The notes under the pieces were generated by a model. The model searched no databases. It saw only the letters and a program-made list of their open reading frames with translations, and was not told the DNA's origin. A stretch of DNA of 64,000 nt, from positions 4,464,001 to 4,528,000 of the forward strand of contig NZ_CP022412.2 of NCBI RefSeq assembly GCF_002222615.2, written 5' to 3'. This stretch comes from Bacteroides caccae (GTDB lineage Bacteria; Bacteroidota; Bacteroidia; Bacteroidales; Bacteroidaceae). Positions 1-14,287 of this stretch are shown piece after piece (position 1 is the stretch's first letter; each line of letters starts with the position of its first letter). Position numbers and translations under genes: made by a program.

Positions 1-1278
1 GCCCTGCCCGAACATCATGACGATATGCTGGCATGTGCCGAACGCTGGGCACAGTTATTACTCGAAGCGGGAGTGGATGAAGCATTGGTAATGCCCTCCC
101 AAGGCAATCCGATTGTCTTTGCACAGAAGATTGTGGACCCAGACGCAAAAACCGTATTAGTTTACGCACACTATGACGTGATGCCTGCCGAACCACTCGA
201 ATTATGGAAAAGCCAACCATTCGAACCGGAAATACGGGACGGATATATCTGGGCACGCGGAGCAGATGATGACAAAGGACAGTCTTTCATCCAGGTGAAG
301 GCTTTCGAATATCTCCTTAAAAACGGGTTATTGAGGAATAACGTGAAGTTTATCTTCGAAGGAGAAGAAGAAATCGGTTCTCCCAGCCTAGAGGCATTCT
401 GTGAAGAACATAAAGAGTTGCTGAAAGCGGACGTTATCCTTGTTTCGGATACCAGTATGTTGGGTGCCGACCTTCCGTCATTAACCACCGGCCTGCGCGG
501 ACTGGCTTATTGGGAAATCGAAGTAACAGGACCGAACCGCGACCTGCATTCCGGACACTTCGGAGGTGCGGTAGCCAATCCTATCAATGTGCTTTGCCGG
601 ATAATCAGTAAGGTGACGGATACAGACGGAAGAATCACCGTCCCCGGATTTTACGATGACGTGGAAGAAGTACCGCAAGCTGAACGTGAAATGATAGCCC
701 ATATTCCTTTCGATGAAAAGAAGTATAAGGAAGCAATCGGCGTAAAAGAACTTTTCGGAGAGAAAGGATACAGTACACTGGAACGCAATAGCTGCCGTCC
801 GTCTTTTGATGTATGCGGCATTTGGGGCGGGTATACGGGAGAAGGTTCAAAGACCGTGCTCCCTTCAAAGGCTTATGCCAAAGTATCTTGCCGACTGGTT
901 CCGCATCAGGATCATCATAAGATTTCGCAAATGTTCACTGATTACATTCTCAGTATTGCTCCAGAAACAGTTCAAGTGAAAGTAACACCGATGCACGGCG
1001 GACAAGGTTATGTCTGCCCGATTTCACTTGCAGCCTATCAGGCAGCCGAAAAAGGTTTTGAAATAGCTTTCGGAAAAAAGCCGTTGGCAGTACGCCGTGG
1101 CGGCAGCATTCCTATCATTTCTACTTTTGAACAGGTACTGGGAGTGAAAACCGTACTCATGGGATTCGGTCTGGAATCAGACGCTATCCATTCGCCGAAT
1201 GAGAACTTCTCACTGGATATTTTCAGGAAAGGCATTGAAGCTGTAGCCGAATTTCATCAGGAATATGCCGGACGGTAA
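1..1278 (+). CDS. M20-family metallopeptidase (dipeptidase), 5' end outside window
   Basis: The reading frame is open from base 1, so the gene begins upstream. The first in-window ATG at 25 is unlikely to be the start, because the in-frame codons before it continue the family's N-terminal region. Visible M20 features are the YAHYDVMP metal-ligand motif, the ARGADDDKGQ motif that supplies the bridging Asp, the EGEEEIGS motif with the catalytic and metal-binding Glu pair, and a dimerisation-domain segment around DLHSGHFGG. These fit a di-zinc cytosolic peptidase that cleaves dipeptides or short peptides. No signal peptide can be judged because the N-terminus is missing. The gene converges on the amidase gene at 1383 and shares a bidirectional terminator with it. 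Substrate preference cannot be read from sequence. Confidence 0.88.
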   Translation, partial: ALPEHHDDMLACAERWAQLLLEAGVDEALVMPSQGNPIVFAQKIVDPDAKTVLVYAHYDVMPAEPLELWKSQPFEPEIRDGYIWARGADDDKGQSFIQVKAFEYLLKNGLLRNNVKFIFEGEEEIGSPSLEAFCEEHKELLKADVILVSDTSMLGADLPSLTTGLRGLAYWEIEVTGPNRDLHSGHFGGAVANPINVLCRIISKVTDTDGRITVPGFYDDVEEVPQAEREMIAHIPFDEKKYKEAIGVKELFGEKGYSTLERNSCRPSFDVCGIWGGYTGEGSKTVLPSKAYAKVSCRLVPHQDHHKISQMFTDYILSIAPETVQVKVTPMHGGQGYVCPISLAAYQAAEKGFEIAFGKKPLAVRRGGSIPIISTFEQVLGVKTVLMGFGLESDAIHSPNENFSLDIFRKGIEAVAEFHQEYAGR

Positions 1279-1315
1279 AGTGGACACAAGAACCATTATT
1301 ATAAACGGTATAAAC

Positions 1316-1359
1316 AAAACGGCGGACAGGCTTACAATCAAGCATCTGTCCACCGTTTT
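1316..1359. terminator. Bidirectional rho-independent terminator
   Basis: A 14-bp inverted repeat with one G-U type mismatch (AAAACGGCGGACAG and CTGTCCACCGTTTT) has A and T runs on its two outer sides. It lies between convergent genes and can stop both. Confidence 0.8.
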
Positions 1360-1382
1360 ATTTTATAGATAACAAGAAACTA

Positions 1383-2441
1383 CTACATGAGCGGAGTCTC
1401 AAAAAGGAACGTAAATGACTCACTATCTTTCAAATCCTTCACCGCATCTCCTGCATAAATCTCTCCCTTCGTCAAAGACAATTTCTTTATACCGGCTTTC
1501 GGGCTAAAGTCTATCTTTTTCAAATCAAGCCAAAACAAATTCGGCGTCAATGTGGATTCAAAATAATAGACCTTATTCTTCTGGTCGGAGACGGAACGCC
1601 AACGGGTAGAAGAAATATGAGGTTTCTCCGGAGTATTAATGCCAAATGGAACTGAAACATTACGCATCACACTCAGCACACTGGGAACAGCAATTTTTGC
1701 ATCGGCAGTCTGCGGAATGGCATGAATGTAGAAAGAGGCACGGACAAAACGGTCGCTCGAACGGTTCGTTCCCGGCAACATCTGCAATCCGCCGACTTCT
1801 TTCCAGTAATCGTTGATAGCTAACTGGTATTCATACCGAGGAGAATTTGTCATTACCTGATATTCTTTCCCTTCGTGAATGCTTAACTTTCCATCCAGAT
1901 ATTCCAGCACAGCCGTATTGCCTGTTTCGTCGGTGATGGCCATGTGCAAAGTAGATTCCGGTCCTCCATTCGGCATACGGGGAGCGTCAATCCGGAAAGT
2001 CTCCTTTTTCAGTTCATCAACGGCCTCACGTACAGTGGCAAAGTTATCAAGCACGTATTGCGTCCAAATACTGATTCCCATTGCTGGACGGATATCACCG
2101 GGAAGCGAATAAATAGATTCGGGCAAGAAAAGTAGACTAGCCACCAAGCCCTTTTCATTCATACCGTCGCAAGTTCCTATATCATAACCGGTTGCAATCA
2201 CACTTCCATACTTAGAAGTCCAGTTCACCGTTTTTTCCTTATTATGCCCAACACGCTGAATGCCACGCGGGAAAACATAGATATTCGACATAATGTCTTC
2301 TTTCCAGTCCATTGTACGCCCCGTTATCACCAACTGTTCCGGGCCGAGGTAAACGGCACGTGTACACGCCTCTACCGGCTGTATACTCATCAAAGAGAGA
2401 GCAGCCAACATCAATATAACCCCTGTCTGTTTCTTTTTCAT
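1383..2441 (-). CDS. Secreted linear-amide C-N hydrolase (bile salt hydrolase / penicillin V acylase family)
   Basis: 352 residues. A Lys-rich N-terminus and hydrophobic stretch form a signal peptide that ends just before Cys26, the expected N-terminal nucleophile of this Ntn-hydrolase family. Relative to that Cys, Arg42 and Asp45 (in GRTMDW) fall exactly where bile salt hydrolases have catalytic Arg18 and Asp21. The later MTNSP Asn and the Arg in SSDRFVRA match the remaining active-site residues. The enzyme would hydrolyse the amide of conjugated bile acids, or of penicillin V or N-acyl amides, in the periplasm or at the surface. The family members cannot be separated reliably by eye. Gut Bacteroides carry such genes and bile salt hydrolase is the commonest assignment. 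It is transcribed alone, divergently from the SUMF1 gene. Confidence 0.88.
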   Translation of the reverse strand: MKKKQTGVILMLAALSLMSIQPVEACTRAVYLGPEQLVITGRTMDWKEDIMSNIYVFPRGIQRVGHNKEKTVNWTSKYGSVIATGYDIGTCDGMNEKGLVASLLFLPESIYSLPGDIRPAMGISIWTQYVLDNFATVREAVDELKKETFRIDAPRMPNGGPESTLHMAITDETGNTAVLEYLDGKLSIHEGKEYQVMTNSPRYEYQLAINDYWKEVGGLQMLPGTNRSSDRFVRASFYIHAIPQTADAKIAVPSVLSVMRNVSVPFGINTPEKPHISSTRWRSVSDQKNKVYYFESTLTPNLFWLDLKKIDFSPKAGIKKLSLTKGEIYAGDAVKDLKDSESFTFLFETPLM

Positions 2442-2483
2442 ATTCTTTTCAAATTAAATAATTGATACTCTTATCTATAATAA

Positions 2484-2491
2484 CAAATATA
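2484..2491 (-). promoter_or_regulatory. Bacteroides -7 promoter element for the amidase gene
   Basis: Reads TATATTTG on the minus strand, matching TAnnTTTG, 43 bases upstream of the start codon at 2441. I see no clear -33 element. Confidence 0.5.
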
Positions 2492-2640
2492 TAACGATTA
2501 TTGCCGAAAATAAAGATGATTTTAATGAAAATAAGGGATTTGTCCAAAGAAGACTCCCAAAGAGATATTAAATAAATTTAAGACTAATGATTGCAGTTAT
2601 TCTCATCTTCTATCGTCAAAAAGATAAACATAGAACTATC

Positions 2641-3540
2641 ATGGAAAGAAAACAAACTAAGCGGATTATAATATTCCTTCTTCTATTGCTAGGTATTATA
2701 TTACCCAATATGGCACAGAAACAAAAGATATGGAAAGCATTTTGCGATAAATGCCGGAGAGAAAAAACCATTGTCGGTGCGCTTCCTTCGCAGTTAGAGA
2801 AAGCTCTACGCTGGTCGCCCGGCATTAGTAATGAGCAAAAAGAAGTGATACGTTACATATTATGGAATATGGTTTACGTAGAAGGAGGGACAGCTAATCT
2901 CGGAGAAAACAACGATTATCCTGTGAATGTGGGCTCTTTTTTCATCAACCGCTATGAGGTAAGTCAGGATGAATGGTACGTCATTATGGGGGAGAATCCT
3001 TCCAACCAACACAGACGTAATTATCCCGTAGATCAAGTTAATTGGTATGACACTCAACGATTCACCCGAAAACTCTCTCAGTTATCCGGCCTCCCCTTCC
3101 GTCTGCCGTTCGAAGCAGAATGGGAATATGCCGCACGTGGAGGCTTGAATACCCAAAACTACATTTATGCCGGTAGCGATGACCCGACACAAGTCGCTTG
3201 GTTTAAAGAAAAATACTCCAATGAAAACACATATGTATCCAACGATATAGGAACCAAAAAACCCAACGAACTCGGACTTTATGATATGAGCGGAAACATC
3301 TACGAATGGTGCATGGACTGGTATGATAAAAAAGTTCCTTTCACCGGAAATATTGATCCTGACCTGAAGGGGATTGATCTGCATAAAGTGCTACGCGGAG
3401 GAAGTTATTATACTATCGCCAAATACTGCAAAATCACCAACCGTTATGGAGTCAATCCACTGCGTTGGGATATTGACTACGGATTACGGCTAGTAATATC
3501 CTTTCAAGATAACACGGAGGAAAAGAGAGTAGCCCAATAA
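2641..3540 (+). CDS. SUMF1/FGE-domain exported protein, probably non-catalytic
   Basis: I chose ATG 2641 rather than 2587 because it places a classic signal peptide (MERKQTKR, then a Leu/Ile-rich core, cleavage near NMAQ) at the N-terminus. About 299 residues. The C-terminal two thirds is a SUMF1-type fold: VDQVNWYDTQRF, RLPFEAEWEYAARGG, LGLYDMSGNIYEWCMDWY and LRGGS are family hallmarks. In formylglycine-generating enzymes two Cys follow the RGGS block. Here the first aligned position is Thr (RGGSYYTIAKYC) and only the second Cys remains, so sulfatase-activating chemistry looks unlikely. Many Bacteroides SUMF1 proteins are binding or structural proteins of unknown role. It is monocistronic and ends at a strong hairpin. 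Confidence 0.8.
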   Translation: MERKQTKRIIIFLLLLLGIILPNMAQKQKIWKAFCDKCRREKTIVGALPSQLEKALRWSPGISNEQKEVIRYILWNMVYVEGGTANLGENNDYPVNVGSFFINRYEVSQDEWYVIMGENPSNQHRRNYPVDQVNWYDTQRFTRKLSQLSGLPFRLPFEAEWEYAARGGLNTQNYIYAGSDDPTQVAWFKEKYSNENTYVSNDIGTKKPNELGLYDMSGNIYEWCMDWYDKKVPFTGNIDPDLKGIDLHKVLRGGSYYTIAKYCKITNRYGVNPLRWDIDYGLRLVISFQDNTEEKRVAQ

Positions 3541-3569
3541 AAATATTCTACACTAATCATACACATAAA

Positions 3570-3621
3570 AAATCCCGTATACGTTGTTTTACATACTCAA
3601 ACTATCACATATACGGGATTT
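3570..3621. terminator. Bidirectional terminator between the SUMF1 gene and the Sus-type operon
   Basis: AAATCCCGTATA and TATACGGGATTT form a perfect 12-bp stem with a 28-nt loop, flanked by A-rich and T/A-rich tracts, between two convergent transcription units. Confidence 0.7.
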
Positions 3622-3672
3622 AAAAGAACAAGCCTTTACCTTGTTTAAACTAATCGTTCATTATAAACAAGC

Positions 3673-4692
3673 TTAATCGTCAGTAGGAACTTTCATGTTC
3701 TCATAAACCTCAATCCATGAGTTCCATTCGGCAGGTGCGTCATTGGTCGCAGCAGTTTTCAGTGTACGATATTTATAGGAAAGATAAAAACGGGTGACTC
3801 CGTCTACGGTGATGTATCTGTTTGCCTGCTGGACAGACAATGCTTCATCATCATCAGTTGTACCGGGTAATTGTACTACCTCTATCAATTCTGATTTATA
3901 AGGTTTTAGTATAAGAGTATTATATTTGGTACCATCGATATAAGTCAGTTCCTCCTCACCGATTTCCATGATAAGGCTCGACTTGTTTATTAATTCCTCT
4001 TCTGCTTTATTGGCACTGTTTTCAATGCCGGCATTCAATCTCACACCCCGTTTCGACAAGGGATATAGAATCTTATTCGCTGATATCTGTGTAGGCTTTG
4101 TATCATCTTCCCGCAGCTGAGTGCCCCTCATAAATAATGTCAAAGGACTTTTCTGACTGGTAAAATCATTCTCAATATACACCTTATACAACACCCGCGA
4201 CTTATCTTTATTCACTTCATAAGGAGTGCAACTGGCAATCCGTAAAGGAATCAGATAAGTGGAATCGGGAGACAATCCCTCGGTCCTAACTTCAATAGGC
4301 AACTTTACATAGGGGTCCTGATCGCCAACTTTCATCACCGCAGTATAACTTTTAATCGTATATCTGGAAGGATCCAGTTCTTTCGCGTACTTATCCTCAT
4401 CCAAGTCAAAGTTATCATGATTATACTTATCAATCAAGTCAGGATCTTTTTCCAACGTTACGGTCACGTCCTGGTCAATAGCCCGTGTACCACCTGCGTA
4501 AATGGTTATATATCCAACGGAAACCGGAGTATTCAGCGAATGAGTGACCGGAAACGTCAAGTCCGTTTCACTCAACACATACACCACCTTCTTGTATAGC
4601 TCACCTTCAAATATTGAATTTTCATTGCACGCTGTCAATCCCATTAACACGGCACAATACATCATATATTTTGTTATTGATTTCATTCTCAT
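3673..4692 (-). CDS. Surface lipoprotein, DUF1735 / DUF4361-type, last gene of SusCD operon
   Basis: 339 residues with a lipoprotein signal peptide (lipobox LTAC near residue 22). The start could be Met1 or Met3. The N-terminal half has the beta-sandwich pattern of DUF1735 (YTIKSYTAVMKVGDQDPYVKLPIEV and similar), and the C-terminal part resembles the DUF4361 region found in the same proteins. Proteins of this type follow SusD in many Bacteroides loci and probably help bind ligand at the cell surface. It lies 25 bp downstream of susD and ends the operon at a shared terminator. The domain names are from memory of the family and the ligand is unknown. Confidence 0.72.
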   Translation of the reverse strand: MRMKSITKYMMYCAVLMGLTACNENSIFEGELYKKVVYVLSETDLTFPVTHSLNTPVSVGYITIYAGGTRAIDQDVTVTLEKDPDLIDKYNHDNFDLDEDKYAKELDPSRYTIKSYTAVMKVGDQDPYVKLPIEVRTEGLSPDSTYLIPLRIASCTPYEVNKDKSRVLYKVYIENDFTSQKSPLTLFMRGTQLREDDTKPTQISANKILYPLSKRGVRLNAGIENSANKAEEELINKSSLIMEIGEEELTYIDGTKYNTLILKPYKSELIEVVQLPGTTDDDEALSVQQANRYITVDGVTRFYLSYKYRTLKTAATNDAPAEWNSWIEVYENMKVPTDD

Positions 4693-4717: not shown

Positions 4718-6742
4718 TTAATTATCCCAACCCGGATTCTGATCCATTAATGGCACTTTCCGCAATTCAGCACGGGGAATAGGCAAGAAGACCATTTTCT
4801 TATCGGCCACTCTGGTACGTGCAAAAAGATGATTGACCGTTGTTCTTTGGAAAAATTCATCTTCAAACCCGTCCGTATTCATACCTACAATCGGTTCTTT
4901 TTCCGTATCCAAATAAATACCCCAACGACGGACATCATAAAAACGTCTGTTCTCGTGAAGGAACTCAATCATGCGTTCTCTCACAATGATGTCAAACATT
5001 TTATCAGCAGAACTTAACTCATCGGTAGTCAAGCCCGGCAAACCCGCCCGATAGCGAACCATATTAAAGTATTTCGCCATTTCGTTCATATCGCGAGTAT
5101 AAGTGCCCGTGCTTTCATCGCTGAAAGTCACCGTATGAGATCCGGTCAGATTATTCAATGCTTCTACATACGAAAGTAATATTTCCGCATAACGGATAAT
5201 GGGGAATGATTTAGGTAATACGGTTGCATCGGTACCACTCCAAGCATCATCATTATGGACATATTTCTTCATCACATACCCGGTCACCGGATAATTGTTG
5301 GCGTCACCGGAACCTACCGCTTTATCCTTTCCGGAAGCCCCATAGCCACTCGCTCCTTTCCAATAATAAACATAGACATTTTTCTTCACAGCTTCACTTG
5401 TAGAAGCACAAGGCCAGAGACAACCGCTAAAACCAATCGATGCATAGAAGCGCGGTTCACGGTTTATATACATATTATAAACACCGCTCTTTAACTGGTA
5501 TCCGGAGAAAGACTTCACTTCAGAAGTGAATCCGTCTTCCAGATATGGATATTCATCGCTCGAATTGGTACGATCTCTACCATCAACCATATAGTAAGCA
5601 TCAATAAACTTCTGAGGGACAGCCATTCCATTATATCCTCCCATTAGCCCCACCGGAAAAGCGTGCCGGGTATAACTACGAAGACTACCGGATGTTCTTC
5701 CCCATATATATTCCGGATTCTTAGTAGCGGTCGATTCGCCCGTAAACATATCGCTATAAGACTTATAGGGATCAATCCCCACAGCCCCTTCCGGGAAAGT
5801 TTTCGTATAATAGTTTACGTCTGATACATTGGTCGGCAATTCCGGCGTGTACTTGTCACTTTTTACGGTATGCAACTCATACATATCCATATCAATTACC
5901 CGTTTGGCAGCATGCGCAGCTACCGCCCAACGTTGCTCGTCATAAGTCTGGCTAACATAGGGAACATTGTCCGATTTACGTATCCAACCTCCGAAAGTCG
6001 TTTTCGCTGCACTTCCTCCATTGAACAAAGGACTTGCCTGTTGCAACCGTAAGCGAGCAATCAGCGCATACGCAGCTCCGCGTGTAGGACGCCCGAACTG
6101 AGATACCGTAACCCGCAAAGGAATATAATTTGCAGCAATTTCCAACTCGTTACAGATATAATCCACTGATTCATCATACGTTGCTCTTTCCTTATTATAG
6201 TATGCAGGAGATTCATTCGTATTCATCGGCTCATCTCCCACAAGAACGACAGGACCAAAGTTTTGAAGCAAATTATAATAAGCATAGCCTCTCATAAAAT
6301 GTGCATAGCCCAGAATCTCGCGTTGTTCTATATTTGTAAGGTCTTTACATTCATTGATTCTACTGAAAATAATATTAACCTTACGAATGATTTTATACAT
6401 CTGTGCCCAGTTATTCATCGTTCCCAAGTTATCGGGAGTCGTGTGCCCCAAAACAAATGTTACTCCGGGAAATTCGCCCGTGTTCCATTGCACAAAGGCT
6501 TCATCCGAACCGGTAACACCCGGTGTATAAGCACCACCCCAGATGGCGCCCTCATCGGGGAAGAAAGCAGCCGTAGCCCATAGATATTTCTGAAGATTCA
6601 TTTTATTCTGAAAAATAGAATCGTATCCCAATGTATCAGCAAAGTACTCATCCACATTCAAGTAATTGCAGGAGGACAGGCAAAAGTAGAACGCTGTACA
6701 TAGCGTTATCATTAATCTTTTAAAATATTTCATATCATGCAT
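4718..6742 (-). CDS. SusD/RagB-family nutrient-binding lipoprotein
   Basis: About 674 residues from the first ATG, with MKYFKRLM at the fourth codon an equally good start. The lipobox CLSSC marks an outer-membrane lipoprotein. Family features include an N-terminal region with repeated helices (HFMRGYAYYNLLQNFGPVVLV is the typical TPR-like SusD helix) and the C-terminal MIVRERMIEFLHENRRFYDVRRWG, the classic RagB/SusD signature. It would form the lid over the SusC channel and capture the substrate. Only 2 bp separate it from susC upstream. The length is above the family average of about 550 residues. The substrate is unknown because no glycoside hydrolase, protease or regulator is encoded next to it. 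Confidence 0.93.
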   Translation of the reverse strand: MHDMKYFKRLMITLCTAFYFCLSSCNYLNVDEYFADTLGYDSIFQNKMNLQKYLWATAAFFPDEGAIWGGAYTPGVTGSDEAFVQWNTGEFPGVTFVLGHTTPDNLGTMNNWAQMYKIIRKVNIIFSRINECKDLTNIEQREILGYAHFMRGYAYYNLLQNFGPVVLVGDEPMNTNESPAYYNKERATYDESVDYICNELEIAANYIPLRVTVSQFGRPTRGAAYALIARLRLQQASPLFNGGSAAKTTFGGWIRKSDNVPYVSQTYDEQRWAVAAHAAKRVIDMDMYELHTVKSDKYTPELPTNVSDVNYYTKTFPEGAVGIDPYKSYSDMFTGESTATKNPEYIWGRTSGSLRSYTRHAFPVGLMGGYNGMAVPQKFIDAYYMVDGRDRTNSSDEYPYLEDGFTSEVKSFSGYQLKSGVYNMYINREPRFYASIGFSGCLWPCASTSEAVKKNVYVYYWKGASGYGASGKDKAVGSGDANNYPVTGYVMKKYVHNDDAWSGTDATVLPKSFPIIRYAEILLSYVEALNNLTGSHTVTFSDESTGTYTRDMNEMAKYFNMVRYRAGLPGLTTDELSSADKMFDIIVRERMIEFLHENRRFYDVRRWGIYLDTEKEPIVGMNTDGFEDEFFQRTTVNHLFARTRVADKKMVFLPIPRAELRKVPLMDQNPGWDN

Positions 6743-6744
6743 AT

Positions 6745-9700
6745 TTAGAAATGGATATAGGTTTGAAATGCGTAACGGGCAGGAATAGGATAAACACGCC
6801 CCATTTTCTGTGCTTGTTCCGGATCTACTGTTTTCACACCGCTCCAGACTGCCAGATTATATCCCACCAATTGAAAGTCGAATGACTGTATACCCAGTCT
6901 TTTTACAAATCCCTTGGTCTTCAGGTTATAGGTTAAGCTAATTTCCTGTAAACGTAAATAGCGCGCATTGTCTTTCCAGAAAGTAGATTTCTTAGTATTA
7001 TTTTCATTCTTACCATAGGATAATCGAGGGAATGCCGCATTAGGGTTTTCCGTAGAGGGATCTCCTGAATACCAGGCTGGAGTCCAGCGATTTGCCTGAA
7101 CGCCGGCTTCCACAGGTACATTACCTGTCTTTTCACCATGGAAAGGAACATATCCCATTTCATATCCATTACCGACTTTAAAATAGGTTGTATTTCCCGT
7201 TCCTTTGAACAGACAAGCCAGTGTAAACGATTTGTAACGGAACTCTCCACCGAATCCATACATCAATAACGGATAGTTAGAGTAAGCCAACGGCACTTGG
7301 TCGTCTTCCGTTATACGTCCATCACCATTCACATCTTTATATTTAATATCACCCGGACGGACAGTTCCAAACTGCGACGGACTGCTCTCCACATCTTGGT
7401 CATCTCTGAACAATCCCAATGCTATGTAACCACGTTGCACTCCATACGGCATACCGCTTATCTGCTGATAGGGATATTTTGGATCAGCCTGTTCCCAGTT
7501 CTGCACATCATTCTTCGAATAGGTAAAGTTTCCTCTGATCGTAAATGAGAAGTCTTTGCCTATATCCTGCGAATAAGAAATATTTCCGTCAGCTCCATAG
7601 CTACGCATCTTTCCCACATTACCATAAGGCATGGTGATAATACCCGCGAAATCAGGAACCTGAGTTCTCTGCTGGAAAATACCATTTCGCTGGTCATTGA
7701 AATAATCGACCACTAAGGAGAGTTTTTCTTTGAAGAATTTCGCTTCAATACCCACATCCGCTTTGGTTGATTTCTCCCAAGCCAGATTGTCAGCACCTAC
7801 GATAGACTCGTTCACACCATTGGAATCGCTTCCCCAGCCCGTAGCCGCATTAGAATTAATAATAGTCAGATAAGGGAAGCGTTTATTGGAAATACGGTCG
7901 TTACCTACTTGTCCATACGAGAAACGGATTTTAAGAAAATCCAGCCAAGGCACCGCTTTCCGCATGAAATCATAGTTTGTCGGTACCCAACCGATAGCTC
8001 CCGAAGGAAAGAAACCGAATTGCTTACCCGGCTCGAAGTTTTCGGAACCTGTATAACCGAAGTTTGCATCAATGAAATAGGTATCTTTAAAACTATAAGT
8101 GATTCTTCCGGATACTCCCTGATAACGTTTGGGAATAGCGCTCATACTGTCAGTGATGTCTTTAGTCGCCTTCTCGTCACTCATGTAATAGTAAAGCAAG
8201 GCTGTTGTCCTGTGTTTATCATTGAATAACCTTTCGTAATTGGCAGTAAACTCGAAATGATATTTACGCCAATGATTCAATGTCTTACTGAATGTAGCTG
8301 CTTGAGCGTCAACTTTCTTTGCCAATTGAAGTTCTCCGGAAGTCGTTCGCCCGATAGCCGAATACATCTCCGGCATTACAAAACGAGTCTCATCATAATA
8401 TACGTCGCTATTCAACGCGCCCTGTACTTTTACTTTCAATCCTTTCAGAAGAAATGACAAATCCTGGTTCAGAGCGAGAGTCACCATATTTTTGTAAGTC
8501 TCGCGGGTAGCCATTCCCGTATGATTAAGCATTACATAAGGTGAATAGGCATCATTGACACCATAAGCCGGAAGTTGTCCTGTTGAAAACCTAGTAGGAA
8601 TAGTCAACGGTGTCAACATTGACTGAGCATTCCAAAGTAAATCTGTGTTAGCCATTCCCGGCTCTTTCTTATTGGATATAAATCCGTCCAAACCCAAATA
8701 GAGGGTGGTTGACTTAGTAACATTGATATCCAAATTGGTTCGATAATTATATGTGTTGTATCCTGTGTCTGCCTTGTAACGGCTGTCAGGGTCTTGAATA
8801 TATGCTGCCGATTCTTTCGACATACCCATACTCACAAAATAACGGGCAATACTACCACCTCCCTGTGCACTTACATAATAAGTCTGCTGGAAAGAAGTCT
8901 TGTGCAGAATTTCGTCTTGCCAGTTTACATCCGGATACAAATCTGGGTCCAATTGATATTGGATTAAATCCATTTCCATAGGAGAATAGAGTTCTTTCTC
9001 TCCTGAAACGACTCTGGCTTCATTGGCCAGCTTGGCGTAATCATAAGCTCTCAAATATTTAGGTAACCGCTTCAACTGTGAAATAGTAAAATTGGCACGG
9101 GCTGTAATTTTGAGTTTTTCTACTGTTCCCCGCTTGGTCGTTACAAGAATTACTCCGTTAGCACCACGAACACCGTAAACTGCCGTTGCAGAAGCATCTT
9201 TTAAAACAGAAAAGCTCTCTACGTCAGCAGGATCGACCTGACTCAAATCGCCTTCCAAACCGTCAATCAATACCAAAGCCGAACTGTTAGCACCAAATGT
9301 TCCTATACCACGAACCCAAAATTCCGAGATATTTTTACCCGGTTCACCACTCGACTGGATAGAAATAACTCCCGGCACTCTACCTCCCAAAGAGTTATTC
9401 AGTGAAGTGGCCGGAACAGCAAGGTCACCAATATCCACGCTTGTGATAGCTCCTACTACGCTCACTTTACGCTGGGTTCCCATACCCACCACTACTACTT
9501 CGTCCAAAGCAGTAGCAGAAGGAGTCATTTTAAGAACCAGGTTTGTCTGGCTATCGGTAACGAAATACTCTATCTTATCATATCCGATATAATTAACGAT
9601 CAGTACATCGCCTTTATGTGCCTGAACTTTAAATCTACCATCCAAATCGGTCGTTGTACCTACGCCCGGACGGTCTTTCAAGAATATATTAGCGCCAATA

Positions 9701-9825
9701 ATCGGTTCCTTATCGGACGACTTATCGACAACTATACCCGAAATAGTCAGCGATTTCCCCGCTTTTTGAGCCATGACGCCCAAACAGCATAAAAGTAAAA
9801 TTTGAATAATATATAATTTTCTCAT
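6745..9825 (-). CDS. SusC/RagA-family TonB-linked outer-membrane transporter
   Basis: 1026 residues with a signal peptide (cleavage near VMAQ). Domains in order: a CarboxypepD_reg-like barrel extension (about residues 28-105, with ISGIVVDKSSDKEPIIGANI), a TonB plug (about 110-235, ending in the SusC signature GVRGANGVILVTTKRG), then a 22-stranded barrel with a final aromatic residue (TYIHF). It imports a ligand across the outer membrane using TonB energy together with the SusD partner encoded 2 bp downstream. There is no N-terminal STN signalling domain, so sigma/anti-sigma control through this protein is not expected. The length is typical. Confidence 0.95.
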   Translation of the reverse strand: MRKLYIIQILLLCCLGVMAQKAGKSLTISGIVVDKSSDKEPIIGANIFLKDRPGVGTTTDLDGRFKVQAHKGDVLIVNYIGYDKIEYFVTDSQTNLVLKMTPSATALDEVVVVGMGTQRKVSVVGAITSVDIGDLAVPATSLNNSLGGRVPGVISIQSSGEPGKNISEFWVRGIGTFGANSSALVLIDGLEGDLSQVDPADVESFSVLKDASATAVYGVRGANGVILVTTKRGTVEKLKITARANFTISQLKRLPKYLRAYDYAKLANEARVVSGEKELYSPMEMDLIQYQLDPDLYPDVNWQDEILHKTSFQQTYYVSAQGGGSIARYFVSMGMSKESAAYIQDPDSRYKADTGYNTYNYRTNLDINVTKSTTLYLGLDGFISNKKEPGMANTDLLWNAQSMLTPLTIPTRFSTGQLPAYGVNDAYSPYVMLNHTGMATRETYKNMVTLALNQDLSFLLKGLKVKVQGALNSDVYYDETRFVMPEMYSAIGRTTSGELQLAKKVDAQAATFSKTLNHWRKYHFEFTANYERLFNDKHRTTALLYYYMSDEKATKDITDSMSAIPKRYQGVSGRITYSFKDTYFIDANFGYTGSENFEPGKQFGFFPSGAIGWVPTNYDFMRKAVPWLDFLKIRFSYGQVGNDRISNKRFPYLTIINSNAATGWGSDSNGVNESIVGADNLAWEKSTKADVGIEAKFFKEKLSLVVDYFNDQRNGIFQQRTQVPDFAGIITMPYGNVGKMRSYGADGNISYSQDIGKDFSFTIRGNFTYSKNDVQNWEQADPKYPYQQISGMPYGVQRGYIALGLFRDDQDVESSPSQFGTVRPGDIKYKDVNGDGRITEDDQVPLAYSNYPLLMYGFGGEFRYKSFTLACLFKGTGNTTYFKVGNGYEMGYVPFHGEKTGNVPVEAGVQANRWTPAWYSGDPSTENPNAAFPRLSYGKNENNTKKSTFWKDNARYLRLQEISLTYNLKTKGFVKRLGIQSFDFQLVGYNLAVWSGVKTVDPEQAQKMGRVYPIPARYAFQTYIHF

Positions 9826-9846: not shown

Positions 9847-11127
9847 TTACTGAATAGCAAGTTTTCTAATACACTTATTTTTAGTATCTGCAATGTAAAT
9901 TGTACCTTCTTCATCCACAGCTACTCCCCAAGGCTCATCAAATAAAGCGTCATCCGGCGTACCGTCTACATAGCCGGCTCTGCCCGGGACACCAATTACA
10001 GTACTTACTGCTCCTTCCCGGTCAATCGAACGAATACAATGATTACTGGAATCTGCAATATACATGATTCCGTCTAAGTCGAAACATATCTGTGAAGGGA
10101 AATTAAATCGTGCGTTCAAACGTTTTCCGTCCTCATAGCCAGGATCTTCTCTTGCTCCTGCATACAATTCATAAATTCCGGTAGAAAGTTCATAGCGATA
10201 AATACAATGCTTGCTCCGATAACAAATATAGAGCACATCCGGATCGAGACTATCAAAACAACAGATAGCATCATAAGTCCAACCCGCATCCAGCCCCGTA
10301 GTAACTAGTTCTGCTTCCTTACTCTTAGGATCCATTTTAGCCAAGTTTCCATTTAATGCCTTTATATACACCAGTTTATCTTCCGGATTAACAGCAGCGG
10401 ATATATATTGGTCTAATGTTACATTCTGCGGTTTCACCTGTTTTTTAGCCCATTGTGTTTCCGGATCAAATTGTAACAAATTACCTCCTTGTACCCAAAG
10501 CGGTAAAAAGACTTTCTGCCCTTCTGTTTCAACCATTGGAATAAATGGAGCTGTAATATTTGTAGCTAATGTAGTTACCATATTTTGTTGCTCATTTATC
10601 TGGCGTAAACGATAACTGGACCTTTCGCAAACAAATATATTTTTCTCACGATCTACGCAAACAAAATGAGTCAATCCGAACTGAGCTGCCGCCAATGTTC
10701 CGTCAACTGCATTTACTTCCGTTCGCGGCGTTCCCGTAATCGTACTTACAGTAACCTGTGTCTTATACGAAAACTGCTGTTCAAAACTGGCTTTATCTTT
10801 ACCTACTTCTACTGTAATAGTGCAATTATCTCCCGGTTGCCGGGGAGTAATGACATAAATTTTAGTTCCTATGGAACGTACCACTGCCGCTTGTTTTTCA
10901 TTGTAGAATACTTTTATCTGCGAAAGATCAGTTCCGAAATTCTCTCCATTAATAATAACTTTCGTTGCCATTCCCCCATTTTCAGGGTAAAAAGAGGTTA
11001 GTTTAATCGGTTGATTTGGATCATAAGGTTTGCCTGTTGTGCCACCTTCTTCTGAATCACTTTTACATGCTGAAAGAAAGGTTATCAGCATTGCAAATAA
11101 AATAGTTACCAAAGATGTTTTTCTCAT
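9847..11127 (-). CDS. TIG/IPT plus NHL-repeat surface lipoprotein, first gene of the SusCD operon
   Basis: 426 residues. The lipobox FLSAC gives a lipid-anchored protein. Residues about 40-125 form an IPT/TIG immunoglobulin-like domain (LTSFYPENGGMATKVIINGENFG is typical). Residues about 130-426 are NHL-type propeller repeats, the clearest being ICFDLDGIMYIADSSNHCIR and GVAVDEEGTIYIADTKNKCI. It precedes susC by 21 bp and probably sits at the cell surface as an extra binding protein or cap. NHL propellers bind proteins, glycans or nucleic acids in other systems, so no ligand can be assigned. The candidate invertible promoter segment lies about 325 bp upstream. Confidence 0.85.
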   Translation of the reverse strand: MRKTSLVTILFAMLITFLSACKSDSEEGGTTGKPYDPNQPIKLTSFYPENGGMATKVIINGENFGTDLSQIKVFYNEKQAAVVRSIGTKIYVITPRQPGDNCTITVEVGKDKASFEQQFSYKTQVTVSTITGTPRTEVNAVDGTLAAAQFGLTHFVCVDREKNIFVCERSSYRLRQINEQQNMVTTLATNITAPFIPMVETEGQKVFLPLWVQGGNLLQFDPETQWAKKQVKPQNVTLDQYISAAVNPEDKLVYIKALNGNLAKMDPKSKEAELVTTGLDAGWTYDAICCFDSLDPDVLYICYRSKHCIYRYELSTGIYELYAGAREDPGYEDGKRLNARFNFPSQICFDLDGIMYIADSSNHCIRSIDREGAVSTVIGVPGRAGYVDGTPDDALFDEPWGVAVDEEGTIYIADTKNKCIRKLAIQ

Positions 11128-11451
11128 TACTATTATTTCATTTATTAAATTAATGATCCTATTTAATAGTTTATCAGTTTTTTATCCTATAAAAGGAAGA
11201 TCAAATAAACTTTTAAACCAAGATCAAAGGTTAACGATTAATCGAAATCCATCAGTTTTTTGGGGACCTGACTGGAATCAATTTTAGAGAATAAGCCTGT
11301 TAACACTCCTTTGAAGTATCAACATGTTTGCCTTTGTTTTTGAATTTTCATTTCCAAAATTCATAATTCATAAGATAAGCGGAGGTTTTCTTTTCATAAG
11401 CATTTCTTGATTTAGTTAATAAAAAATTAGTCGAATATCCTTTGCTTGTTA

Positions 11452-11804
11452 CTAAGTTCTACTTGAACTTAGGTTATAAATTGAAAAAGAAAGCCCTGTG
11501 TTACTCTCACTTGAATAATACGGTAGATATATTAGATCGAAATATAGTCATGGACTATTTTAGGCATGAAAATCACTGGCAAAGTTCACAAAAGAAAAAA
11601 AATAATAATAAAACAATTTATTATATATTGTTATATAATAAAATATTGTATATTTGCATTCGAGAATATTAAATATTTGCACAAGATACAAGAAGGCTAT
11701 ATAAAAATAAAAGCAGAGAAAGTACATTTAAACATCCAAATAATATTTAAGGTACTTATTTTTTATTATTTATTACCTTTTACCTAAGTTCAAGTAGAAC
11801 TTAG
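11452..11804. repeat. Candidate invertible segment bounded by 23-bp inverted repeats
   Basis: The left site (11452-11474) and right site (11782-11804) carry the same 23 bp in opposite orientation. Each site is itself a palindrome, with arms CTAAGTTC and GAACTTAG around a 5-bp asymmetric core: TACTT on the left, AAGTA on the right. Dyad arms with an asymmetric core are what site-specific recombinases use to define orientation. The 307 bp between them are extremely AT-rich and contain a good plus-strand promoter. Bases outside and just inside the repeats do not match further. No recombinase gene is adjacent. Confidence 0.6.
11628..11656 (+). promoter_or_regulatory. Promoter inside the invertible segment
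   Basis: TATATTTG at 11649-11656 is an exact -7 match, with a TTG at 11628-11630, 18 bp upstream, as a possible -33 element. In the orientation shown it fires away from the Sus-type operon, toward the 3' end of topB, where only terminators follow. Confidence 0.5.
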
Positions 11805-11963
11805 GCATTTTTTAGCATTTGATTCAGTTTCTCGATCAAAGTTTCATAGAATAGCGTTATCTTTTTGGATACCAACAATATACATTACGCGAACATCTTA
11901 ATCTTAATAATTACAAATATCGGAAATTAGTTACATTTTCCCTAAATGCTTCCACTATTATGA

Positions 11964-11995
11964 AAAAAAGTTCTCACTGTAGTGAGAACTTTTTT
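11964..11995. terminator. Strong hairpin terminator downstream of topB
   Basis: AAAAAAGTTCTCACT and AGTGAGAACTTTTTT form a 15-bp stem with a minimal loop and T runs on both sides. It lies about 115 bp past the topB stop on the minus strand and would also stop plus-strand transcripts leaving the promoter at 11649. Confidence 0.75.
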
Positions 11996-12112
11996 CCTTA
12001 TCGCGACATTTTTTTCTTATTATGATGAAATTTACAACAACACACTATAATTTAATAATAGTATTGGCTACAACTGAAACTCGTCTTTTACTTAAACCTT
12101 ATAAGACTAAAA

Positions 12113-14287
12113 CTATTCAAATGTTTTTCGGTATGTACATCCATTTTTCCATTCCGAACACCCGTAGGCTGTTTTTCCTTTTATGATAATTCCCTTACCA
12201 CAAACCGGACAGGGTTGTCCTACTAATGAGTCCGGAGTATTATTCGGAGAAGAAACAGGGGTAGCAACAGGAGACGGTGATACTTCTGTTTTTGCCTCTT
12301 TTGATTCTCCTGCTTCGGAATTCTTTTTTTTCTCTTTCGGCGGCGTACTTACTTTCCGTTCACGTTTTTTAGGTTCCTTCTTTGCCTTCTCTTCGGTCTT
12401 GGCAGCTACCGCATCTTGAATAGTGATACGACGATTGGTATTATCAGAAAGTACACTCATTACAATTTCCGAAACCATTTGTTTCAGTTCTTCAAGAAAT
12501 TGGCGAGCATCGTATGTTTTCTTTTCTATCTCACGCAACTTCTTTTCCCAAATACCCGTCAACTCCGCTGATTTCAAAAGTTCTTCGTGGATTAGCTGCA
12601 CCAATTCTACTCCTGTCGGTGTAGCGATCAGATTCTTTCTCTCCTTGCGGATATAATTTCGTTTGAACAGCGTTTCAATAATAGCGGCACGGGTGGATGG
12701 GCGACCGATACCATTCTCTTTCAAGGCATCGCGAAGTTCATCATTATCGACTAGTTTTCCGGCGGTTTCCATAGCCCGGAGCAAGGTCGCTTCCGTAAAA
12801 GGTCTTGGCGGCTGCGTCCATTTTTCATTCAAGTCGGGGATGTGAGGACCACTCTCCCCTTTTGCAAAGGCAGGAAGGACATTTTCATCGTCATCGTCCT
12901 TTTCTTCAGTAGTGTCTTTCACATCTTTAGCGAATACCACACGCCAGCCTGGTTCTAAGATTTGCTTACCGGTGACTTTAAATTCTATTTTATCCACTTC
13001 ACCCATCACGGTAGTAGTCGAAATCTTACAATCAGGATAGAACACTGCTATAAAACGGCGCGCTATTAAGTCATAGACACGACGTTCCATATCAGTAAGG
13101 TTTTGAGCATAAACTCCGGTAGGGATAATGGCGTGGTGGTCCGTCACTTTCGAATTATCAAATACCTTTTTTGATTTAGGCAACGTAGAACCATTCAACG
13201 GGGCAGTCAATACTTCGTAATCACGAAGCCCTTTCAGAATACCAGGACATTTCGGATAAATATCGTCGCTCAGAAAAGTGGTATCAACACGTGGATATGT
13301 AGCTACTTTCTTCTCATAAAGAGATTGGATCAGTTTCAGTGTTTCATCGGCAGAATAGGCGAATTTCTTGTTACACTCTACCTGAAGGGAAGTCAAGTCA
13401 AACAAACGCGGAGCATATTCCTTTCCGTCTTTCTTACCAACACTGGTTACCACAAAAGGAAGGTCTTTGATACGTTGTACCAAGGCTTCACCTTCTTCAC
13501 GATTGGCGATAGGATCGATACCCGGATTGTCTATTTTCTTTTTTCCACCGTTTTTTTCTTCTTCTGCCGCTATTTCTTCATCACTTTTGCGGATAAGTGC
13601 GGAGAAAGTAGTATCTCGATAGTTTGTTTTTAGTTCCCAATATTGCTTGGGTTGGAAATTGGCAATTTCCAACTGACGGTTGACAATCAATGCCAAAGTA
13701 GGTGTCTGCACACGTCCGATAGAAAGCACCTGTTTGTTTTGACCATATTTAATAGTATATAAGCGTGTGGCGTTCATTCCCAGCAGCCAGTCACCTATTG
13801 CACGAGAAAGTCCCGCCTCATACAACGATTGGAAATCAGACTGATCTTTTAACTTGGAAAAACCTTCACGAATAGCCTCTTCCGTCAAAGAAGAAATCCA
13901 CAAACGCCTCACCGGACAGCGTGCACCCGCCTTTTGCATCACCCAGCGCTGAATCAATTCTCCTTCCTGACCAGCATCACCGCAATTGATAATCTCATCT
14001 GCATTCTGCATCAACTGTTCGATAATATGAAACTGTTTCTCAATACCCGGGTCATGTCCAATCAGTTTGATACCGAAACGTGGGGGGATCATCGGCAAGC
14101 TACCCAAGCTCCACGATTTCCAATTGGGTGTGTATTCATGCGGTTCTTTCAAGGTACAGAGATGCCCGAATGTCCAGGTCACCTGGTATCCGTTCCCTTC
14201 TATATATCCCTCTTTCCTTGTATGAGCGCCGAGTACCTCGGCTATATCGCGTGCAACAGATGGCTTTTCGGCTATGCAAACTATCAT
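12113..14287 (-). CDS. topB: DNA topoisomerase III (type IA)
   Basis: 724 residues. The N-terminal TOPRIM domain begins MIVCIAEKPSVARDIAEVLG and has GDAGQEGELI as its acidic metal-binding motif. The active-site Tyr lies in the VATYPRVDTTFLSDD segment. The C-terminal tail (about residues 600-690) is Lys/Glu/Pro-rich and ends in a four-Cys zinc ribbon (PCPVCGKG then YGCSEWKNGC). The enzyme decatenates DNA and resolves recombination or replication intermediates. The length and the tail with zinc ribbon fit Bacteroides TopB. It is transcribed alone from a promoter at 14321-14328. Confidence 0.93.
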   Translation of the reverse strand: MIVCIAEKPSVARDIAEVLGAHTRKEGYIEGNGYQVTWTFGHLCTLKEPHEYTPNWKSWSLGSLPMIPPRFGIKLIGHDPGIEKQFHIIEQLMQNADEIINCGDAGQEGELIQRWVMQKAGARCPVRRLWISSLTEEAIREGFSKLKDQSDFQSLYEAGLSRAIGDWLLGMNATRLYTIKYGQNKQVLSIGRVQTPTLALIVNRQLEIANFQPKQYWELKTNYRDTTFSALIRKSDEEIAAEEEKNGGKKKIDNPGIDPIANREEGEALVQRIKDLPFVVTSVGKKDGKEYAPRLFDLTSLQVECNKKFAYSADETLKLIQSLYEKKVATYPRVDTTFLSDDIYPKCPGILKGLRDYEVLTAPLNGSTLPKSKKVFDNSKVTDHHAIIPTGVYAQNLTDMERRVYDLIARRFIAVFYPDCKISTTTVMGEVDKIEFKVTGKQILEPGWRVVFAKDVKDTTEEKDDDDENVLPAFAKGESGPHIPDLNEKWTQPPRPFTEATLLRAMETAGKLVDNDELRDALKENGIGRPSTRAAIIETLFKRNYIRKERKNLIATPTGVELVQLIHEELLKSAELTGIWEKKLREIEKKTYDARQFLEELKQMVSEIVMSVLSDNTNRRITIQDAVAAKTEEKAKKEPKKRERKVSTPPKEKKKNSEAGESKEAKTEVSPSPVATPVSSPNNTPDSLVGQPCPVCGKGIIIKGKTAYGCSEWKNGCTYRKTFE

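Follow-up and report, generated by a model that had tools for sequence, protein, structure and literature searches.

The segment at 11452-11804 of the window, as the whole analysed stretch of 64,000 nucleotides from Bacteroides caccae is called here, is very probably an invertible promoter that is OFF as assembled and would be turned by a site-specific tyrosine recombinase. An invertible promoter for the SusCD operon had been proposed by the sequence-only reading. The proposal is supported by the layout of the locus, by a published sibling pair (pair I) and by two sibling loci that are flipped between species; that the window locus itself flips and is expressed when ON is our inference. Glycan uptake by gut Bacteroides is decided by the SusCD receptors, and surface structures of this type have been discussed as targets of phages and of the immune system. 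With the window locus, a further receptor operon is probably phase-variable. Of greater weight is that the largest inverton group in a recent survey of Bacteroidota (PMC11892184) now has a proposed enzyme that can be tested.

Architecture of the probable switch

Two inverted 23-bp sites 307 bp apart, each a dyad around an asymmetric 5-bp core, had been described by the sequence-only reading, together with a -7 element between them that is directed away from the SusCD operon. All of this was confirmed. In a repeat search the two arms were complementary at 23 of 23 positions, with 307 nt between them, and each consists of the dyad CTAAGTTC / GAACTTAG around a core that reads TACTT on the left and AAGTA on the right, with the same bases at both arms. 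When the dyad pattern was searched through the whole window with up to 3 mismatches, it matched at 2 places, each time exactly; 100 shuffles gave 0.25 matches on average. As in a promoter inverton, near-identical inverted repeats surround a short intergenic segment, and an internal promoter, judged by its sequence (TATATTTG with a TTG upstream), would face a surface operon in one orientation only. The coordinates of these features are listed in the table.

Features of the switch, its neighbours and the sibling pairs (window positions, except for pairs A to G and I, which are given in genome positions)
Feature	Position	Strand	Remarks
BT_3987-like_N / BT_3044-like_C protein	3673..4692	-	339 aa
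SusD-like lipoprotein	4718..6742	-	674 aa
SusC-like TonB-dependent receptor	6745..9825	-	1026 aa
First operon gene, IPT/TIG + NHL repeat protein	9847..11127	-	426 aa
Fixed leader, switch to operon	11128..11451	-	without TAnnTTTG toward operon
Terminator-like hairpin in fixed leader	11298..11324	- (operon strand)	12 pairs, 3 G-C
Left recombination site	11452..11474	+	CTAAGTT-CTACTTG-AACTTAGGT
Invertible segment	11475..11781	.	307 bp; without ATG-started ORF of at least 90 aa
TTG, -33-like element	11628..11630	+	21 bp ahead of -7 start
-7 element TATATTTG	11649..11656	+	as assembled, faces away from SusCD operon
Imperfect direct repeat of -7 region	11665..11681	+	88%
Right recombination site	11782..11804	-	inverted copy of left site, 23/23
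Right-site hairpin, then CATTTTTTAG	11783..11815	+	terminator-like for away-facing promoter
Second hairpin, A and T runs at its sides	11959..12000	.	between switch and topoisomerase gene
Topoisomerase gene (Topoisom_bac + Toprim)	12113..14287	-	convergent with OFF-facing promoter
Pair A	41071/41404		
Pair B	513789/514124		
Pair C	963534/964417		
Pair D	1922216/1922643		
Pair E	1974637/1974906		
Pair F	2761366/2761687		
Pair G	3316695/3316961		
Pair H			the window pair
Pair I	1936310-1936332 / 1936692-1936714		

The absence of an exact TAnnTTTG facing the operon, claimed earlier for the adjoining fixed DNA, held for the 324 bp of the leader and also for the invertible segment as assembled; the best match in each reached 5 of the 6 fixed letters. 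Inversion would aim the promoter at the operon, as had been suggested: the flipped -7 element is computed to begin at minus-strand position 11607, which is 480 bp ahead of the start codon. Taken alone, TATATTTG is weak evidence of a promoter. It arises by chance in this AT-rich segment with P = 0.093 (first-order Markov shuffles). What gives the case for the window switch its strength is recurrence.

In the proposed mechanism, a tyrosine recombinase would exchange strands in the 7-bp centre CTACTTG of both sites, and the 307-bp segment would turn. In the assembled OFF state the TATATTTG promoter would fire rightward, and its transcript would end at the right site with its T run and at the second hairpin, before the topoisomerase gene. 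The flipped promoter, reading leftward from 11607, would transcribe the IPT/NHL-SusC-SusD-lipoprotein operon, with a leader of about 465 nt ahead of it. Both palindromes are predicted to fold (z -3.75 and -3.88). The right copy is followed by a T run and is one of two terminator-like matches, against 0.3 expected; no T run follows the left site in the operon direction, so that read-through of this site is expected after the flip. The ON transcript may be attenuated by the hairpin at 11324-11298, since this leader structure is terminator-like and repeats between promoter and gene are reported, in the accessible part of a study of B. fragilis, to reduce expression (PMC4747536).

An Rfam search of 10900-12600 at E <= 1 returned six matches, each under its gathering score. 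In the present genome (G000) the window occupies G000:C1:4464001-4528000 on a single contig of 4,570,803 bases. The topoisomerase gene product is 93% identical, over its best segment, to the counterpart in Bacteroides acidifaciens. Elsewhere in the window, a gene of the choloylglycine hydrolase family (bile salt hydrolase-like) was observed at 1383-2441.

A family of sibling pairs

A genome search for the site, recommended as a check by the earlier reading, was carried out with patterns of the site form and with a repeat search of the loci around their matches. It gave nine inverted pairs of this form, the window pair included. Being found through patterns and their surroundings, the nine are a lower bound, and more may exist. 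Aligned from outside to inside, the pairs read AAGTT-N7-AACTT, and they span 288-899 bp. Their 7-mer centres are nine distinct ones (CTATAAG, CTACTGG, CTAGCAG, CTACAAG, GTAGTAG, CAATTAG, CTACTGA, CTACTTG and CTATATG), and both copies of each pair carry the same centre. A scan for inverted AGTTC(N5)GAACT with the same core, run over nine own-genome loci, gave 8 pairs, and 0 when all fetched loci were read backwards (3.39 Mb); the ninth pair, G, is one arm change from this form and was found by the repeat search. Because the scan required a match of the 5-bp core, core identity within pairs is partly a product of selection; the repeat search that gave the pairs demanded only an 11-base exact seed.

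Pairs A, B, C, E, F, G and H precede operons with a SusC-like gene, which adjoins the pair or, at H, follows after one gene. Tests for SusD at A, C, E, G and H found a SusD-like gene at all five. In all seven of these promoter-type pairs TATATTTG is directed away from the operon (two-sided sign test, p = 0.016). At pair B two further TAnnTTTG matches, TAGATTTG and TAACTTTG, do face the operon, which makes the OFF reading less clear there. Pairs D and I lie at the ends of FecR-like genes (one tested for each) in a cluster of SusCD operons (loci L044 and L052, G000:C1:1916179-1942761), and would exchange coding ends, likely those of anti-sigma genes, beyond a promoter alone.

Inversion at siblings is documented both in culture and between genomes. 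If the published starts are 0-based, pair I is base for base the inverton B-ca-ATCC-43185__0:1936309-1936332-1936691-1936714 of Bacteroides caccae ATCC 43185, which the available text of PMC11892184 places in group 131 and describes as read-supported, with an orientation that shifts during passaging from mostly forward at passage 1 to almost fully reverse by passages 4-5. On this agreement the present genome is taken to be that of ATCC 43185. Numerous inversion sites in B. caccae are also reported in the accessible part of PMC5903667. Between genome G009 and the present one (G000), alignment of locus C runs in one direction over the SusC flank and in the opposite direction over a 220-bp inner part, so that in G009 TATATTTG faces SusC; the other flank gave no alignment. 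G072 and G075 are oriented as G000 at this locus, and G047 gave no alignment. At locus I the G009 segment runs opposite to both of its flanks, and G072, G075 and G012 are as G000.

The site form places the window pair beside group 131: the pair aligns with the named member, pair I, and with seven further pairs. Both belong, as taken here, to one strain, and both have targets of the same kind, group 131 being enriched ahead of TonB receptor and RagB/SusD genes (PMC11892184, available text). The site pair, called unfamiliar by the sequence-only reading, is of a published form; the statement there that Bacteroides switch surface operons by promoter inversion agrees with the literature. SusC/SusD promoter inversion is already known in Bacteroidota, and the site form is already published for B. 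caccae ATCC 43185. The window locus is not named in the available main text of PMC11892184, and may be listed in its supplementary table. A literature phrase search with the strain name and inverton returned nothing, a weak result in that PMC11892184, where the strain name is hyphenated, was likewise missed.

An ortholog of the window locus was not found among 68 other Bacteroides genomes searched for the site, 30 relatives searched for the first gene and 80 topoisomerase records. The exact site with core TACTT is absent from the 68 genomes. The first operon gene has no full-length match above 42% identity among the 30 relatives, where shorter pieces reach at most 49%, and no pair of the same form lies near the topoisomerase gene in the fetched DNA of the 80 named records. 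Exact matches were used across genomes because a 2-mismatch site pattern gave no excess over the backward control in 60 genomes. A scan of viral_contigs for the site gave at least 120 stretches and was uninformative, 78 of the 80 listed carrying a single match.

Other explanations of the locus were weighed. It is unlikely that the pair is a relic, with true sites around a segment that no longer flips and an operon that is silent or driven from elsewhere. A locked relic would look like the window locus in the sequence, only a single orientation is known there, and the promoter-type pairs all point away as assembled; yet the window sites are identical at 23 of 23 positions without decay, sibling I flips in culture (PMC11892184, available text), and OFF references are known for such switches, the large-capsule promoter being OFF in three B. 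fragilis genomes according to the accessible part of PMC3090145. That the palindromes are instead terminators or attenuators around an ordinary promoter region is very improbable. The folding of both copies, the T run at the right copy and the excess of terminator-like matches, of which the right copy is one, would fit such a role, but the left copy lacks a T run, asymmetric centres matched in inverted order within a pair and differing between pairs would be needless for a terminator, and the published sibling inverts (PMC11892184, available text). A terminator role alongside recombination is possible. Least probable of all is that a regulator of SusCD operons binds the palindromes as its operators: 5-7-5 dyads do recur ahead of SusC-type operons, but as inverted pairs of 288-899 bp with pair-specific centres, and also around the FecR-like gene ends of pairs D and I.

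A candidate recombinase

With at least nine probable switches that share arms and differ in their centres, one enzyme could serve all, each pair recombining only with itself. Most probably this enzyme is a tyrosine recombinase of 397 aa encoded at G000:C1:93546-94736, the candidate somewhat favoured here for switches of the window family. We hold in even balance the wider idea that this recombinase, an apparent shuffler of SusC bodies, is the master invertase of group 131, with the 7-bp centres as address codes that would keep at least nine switches independent.

A search of the genome for tyrosine or serine recombinase genes, also recommended earlier, gave 33 matches to the tyrosine recombinase family, one of them under the family cut-off, and 1 serine recombinase match. 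The recombinases were compared with those of the site-bearing genomes G009 (28 of 33 matches) and G047 (18 of 19) and of the site-free G034 (3 of 3). Identity of at least 59% in both G009 and G047 was reached by XerC, XerD, the restriction-associated L017 and the candidate, which is 85% identical in G009 and 60% in G047 and has no counterpart in G034. It contains Arm-DNA-bind_5, SAM_5 and integrase domains.

The candidate gene has an intact SusC gene on one side and an N-truncated one on the other. ACCAAGTTC-TGCAA-AGACTT occurs in both, and their mutual homology starts at that site. All 15 arm bases of this crossover site agree with those of pair G; in the first 700 nt of ten SusC genes from loci A-I, no more than 11 of the 15 are matched. 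The locus (L298, G000:C1:89000-100000, at 873-4097 and 6387-9338) has the appearance of a SusC shufflon with an embedded recombinase, in which the homology of the truncated SusC starts at a recombination-like site within the CarboxypepD_reg coding region. Among the own recombinase loci examined, no window-family site lies beside any recombinase except this one. Of 30 loci of the candidate's recombinase family, 19 have a local inverted pair, against 1 over the 30 in the backward null; the other 11 have no local pair in the fetched DNA. Among 80 recombinase loci fetched otherwise, some of them of the candidate's family, local pairs occur at 2, both of that family.

Co-occurrence was rejected as proof of the candidate enzyme. 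The candidate is present in 18 of 18 genomes with at least three exact sites and in 35 of 51 others (Fisher p = 0.004, 69 genomes; G101, with a 32% identity match only, was counted as lacking it), so that of the 53 genomes with the candidate 35 carry fewer than three exact sites. With that threshold, a control recombinase, L028, gives an equally good result (18 of 18 versus 37 of 51, p = 0.008); genes closely related to L028 are found in 9 of 18 site-bearing genomes versus 7 of 51 others (p = 0.003). Site counts are noisy: in 9 of 69 genomes three matches are reached by the backward control pattern as well. The candidate matches in site-bearing G047, G087 and G094 contain a stop or are fragmented. 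For these reasons the local crossover site, not co-occurrence, carries the enzyme case. Common descent may be the source of all three associations.

There is an appreciable chance, if a lesser one, that the inversion is real and is the work of another enzyme, either XerC/XerD or one of ten tyrosine invertases with adjacent switches of their own. Ten such genes exist in the genome, and one of them, L028, equals the candidate in co-occurrence with the sites; yet each of the ten adjoins its own GTTAC(N7)GTAAC-type pair, a different site type, for which they were rejected as the window enzyme, and close relatives of L028 (at least 64% identity) are lacking in 9 of the 18 site-bearing genomes. The ten (L282-L286, L288-L291) form two paralogous groups, with the pair 86-119 bp from the integrase-domain match and spanning 288-311 bp.

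Compared with published enzymes, the candidate recombinase is perhaps of the Tsr0667 kind, going by published descriptions. In B. fragilis this one tyrosine recombinase is described, in the available parts of PMC4747536 and PMC11852207, as acting in shufflon-type inversions at three SusC/SusD clusters and nine other regions. A single site form is likewise common to the promoter switches and the SusC/FecR-type swaps proposed here. Capsule-promoter invertons with GTTAC(N7)GTAAC sites and an adjacent tyrosine invertase (PMC12118408, available text) resemble the window pair as promoter invertons of about 300 bp with 5-7-5 dyad sites, but have other arms and an invertase next door, and the window pair has neither GTTAC/GTAAC arms nor an adjacent invertase. 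Mpi of B. fragilis, a serine invertase that flips many capsule promoters (PMC8375218 and PMC4747536, available parts), is alike in being one master enzyme for many promoters. It differs in its site, ARACGTTCGTN, which is unlike the window site, and the sole serine recombinase match here reaches 86 bits, below the Mpi cut-off of 272. The available text of PMC11892184 links no invertase group to group 131, its largest, while one is proposed here; among the cited sources as available, the enzyme assignment is the part not met before.

Other recombinases were also set aside. That at 2753486-2754733, about 7 kb from pair F, has a best relative 55% identical at E <= 1e-60, and its best identity in site-bearing G009 is 34%. 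L014, L015 and L017 sit among apparent type I restriction genes, as judged by eye. Three loci (L274, L275 and L287) are, again by eye, apparent type I restriction loci adjoining tyrosine recombinases, and are candidates for hsdS shuffling.
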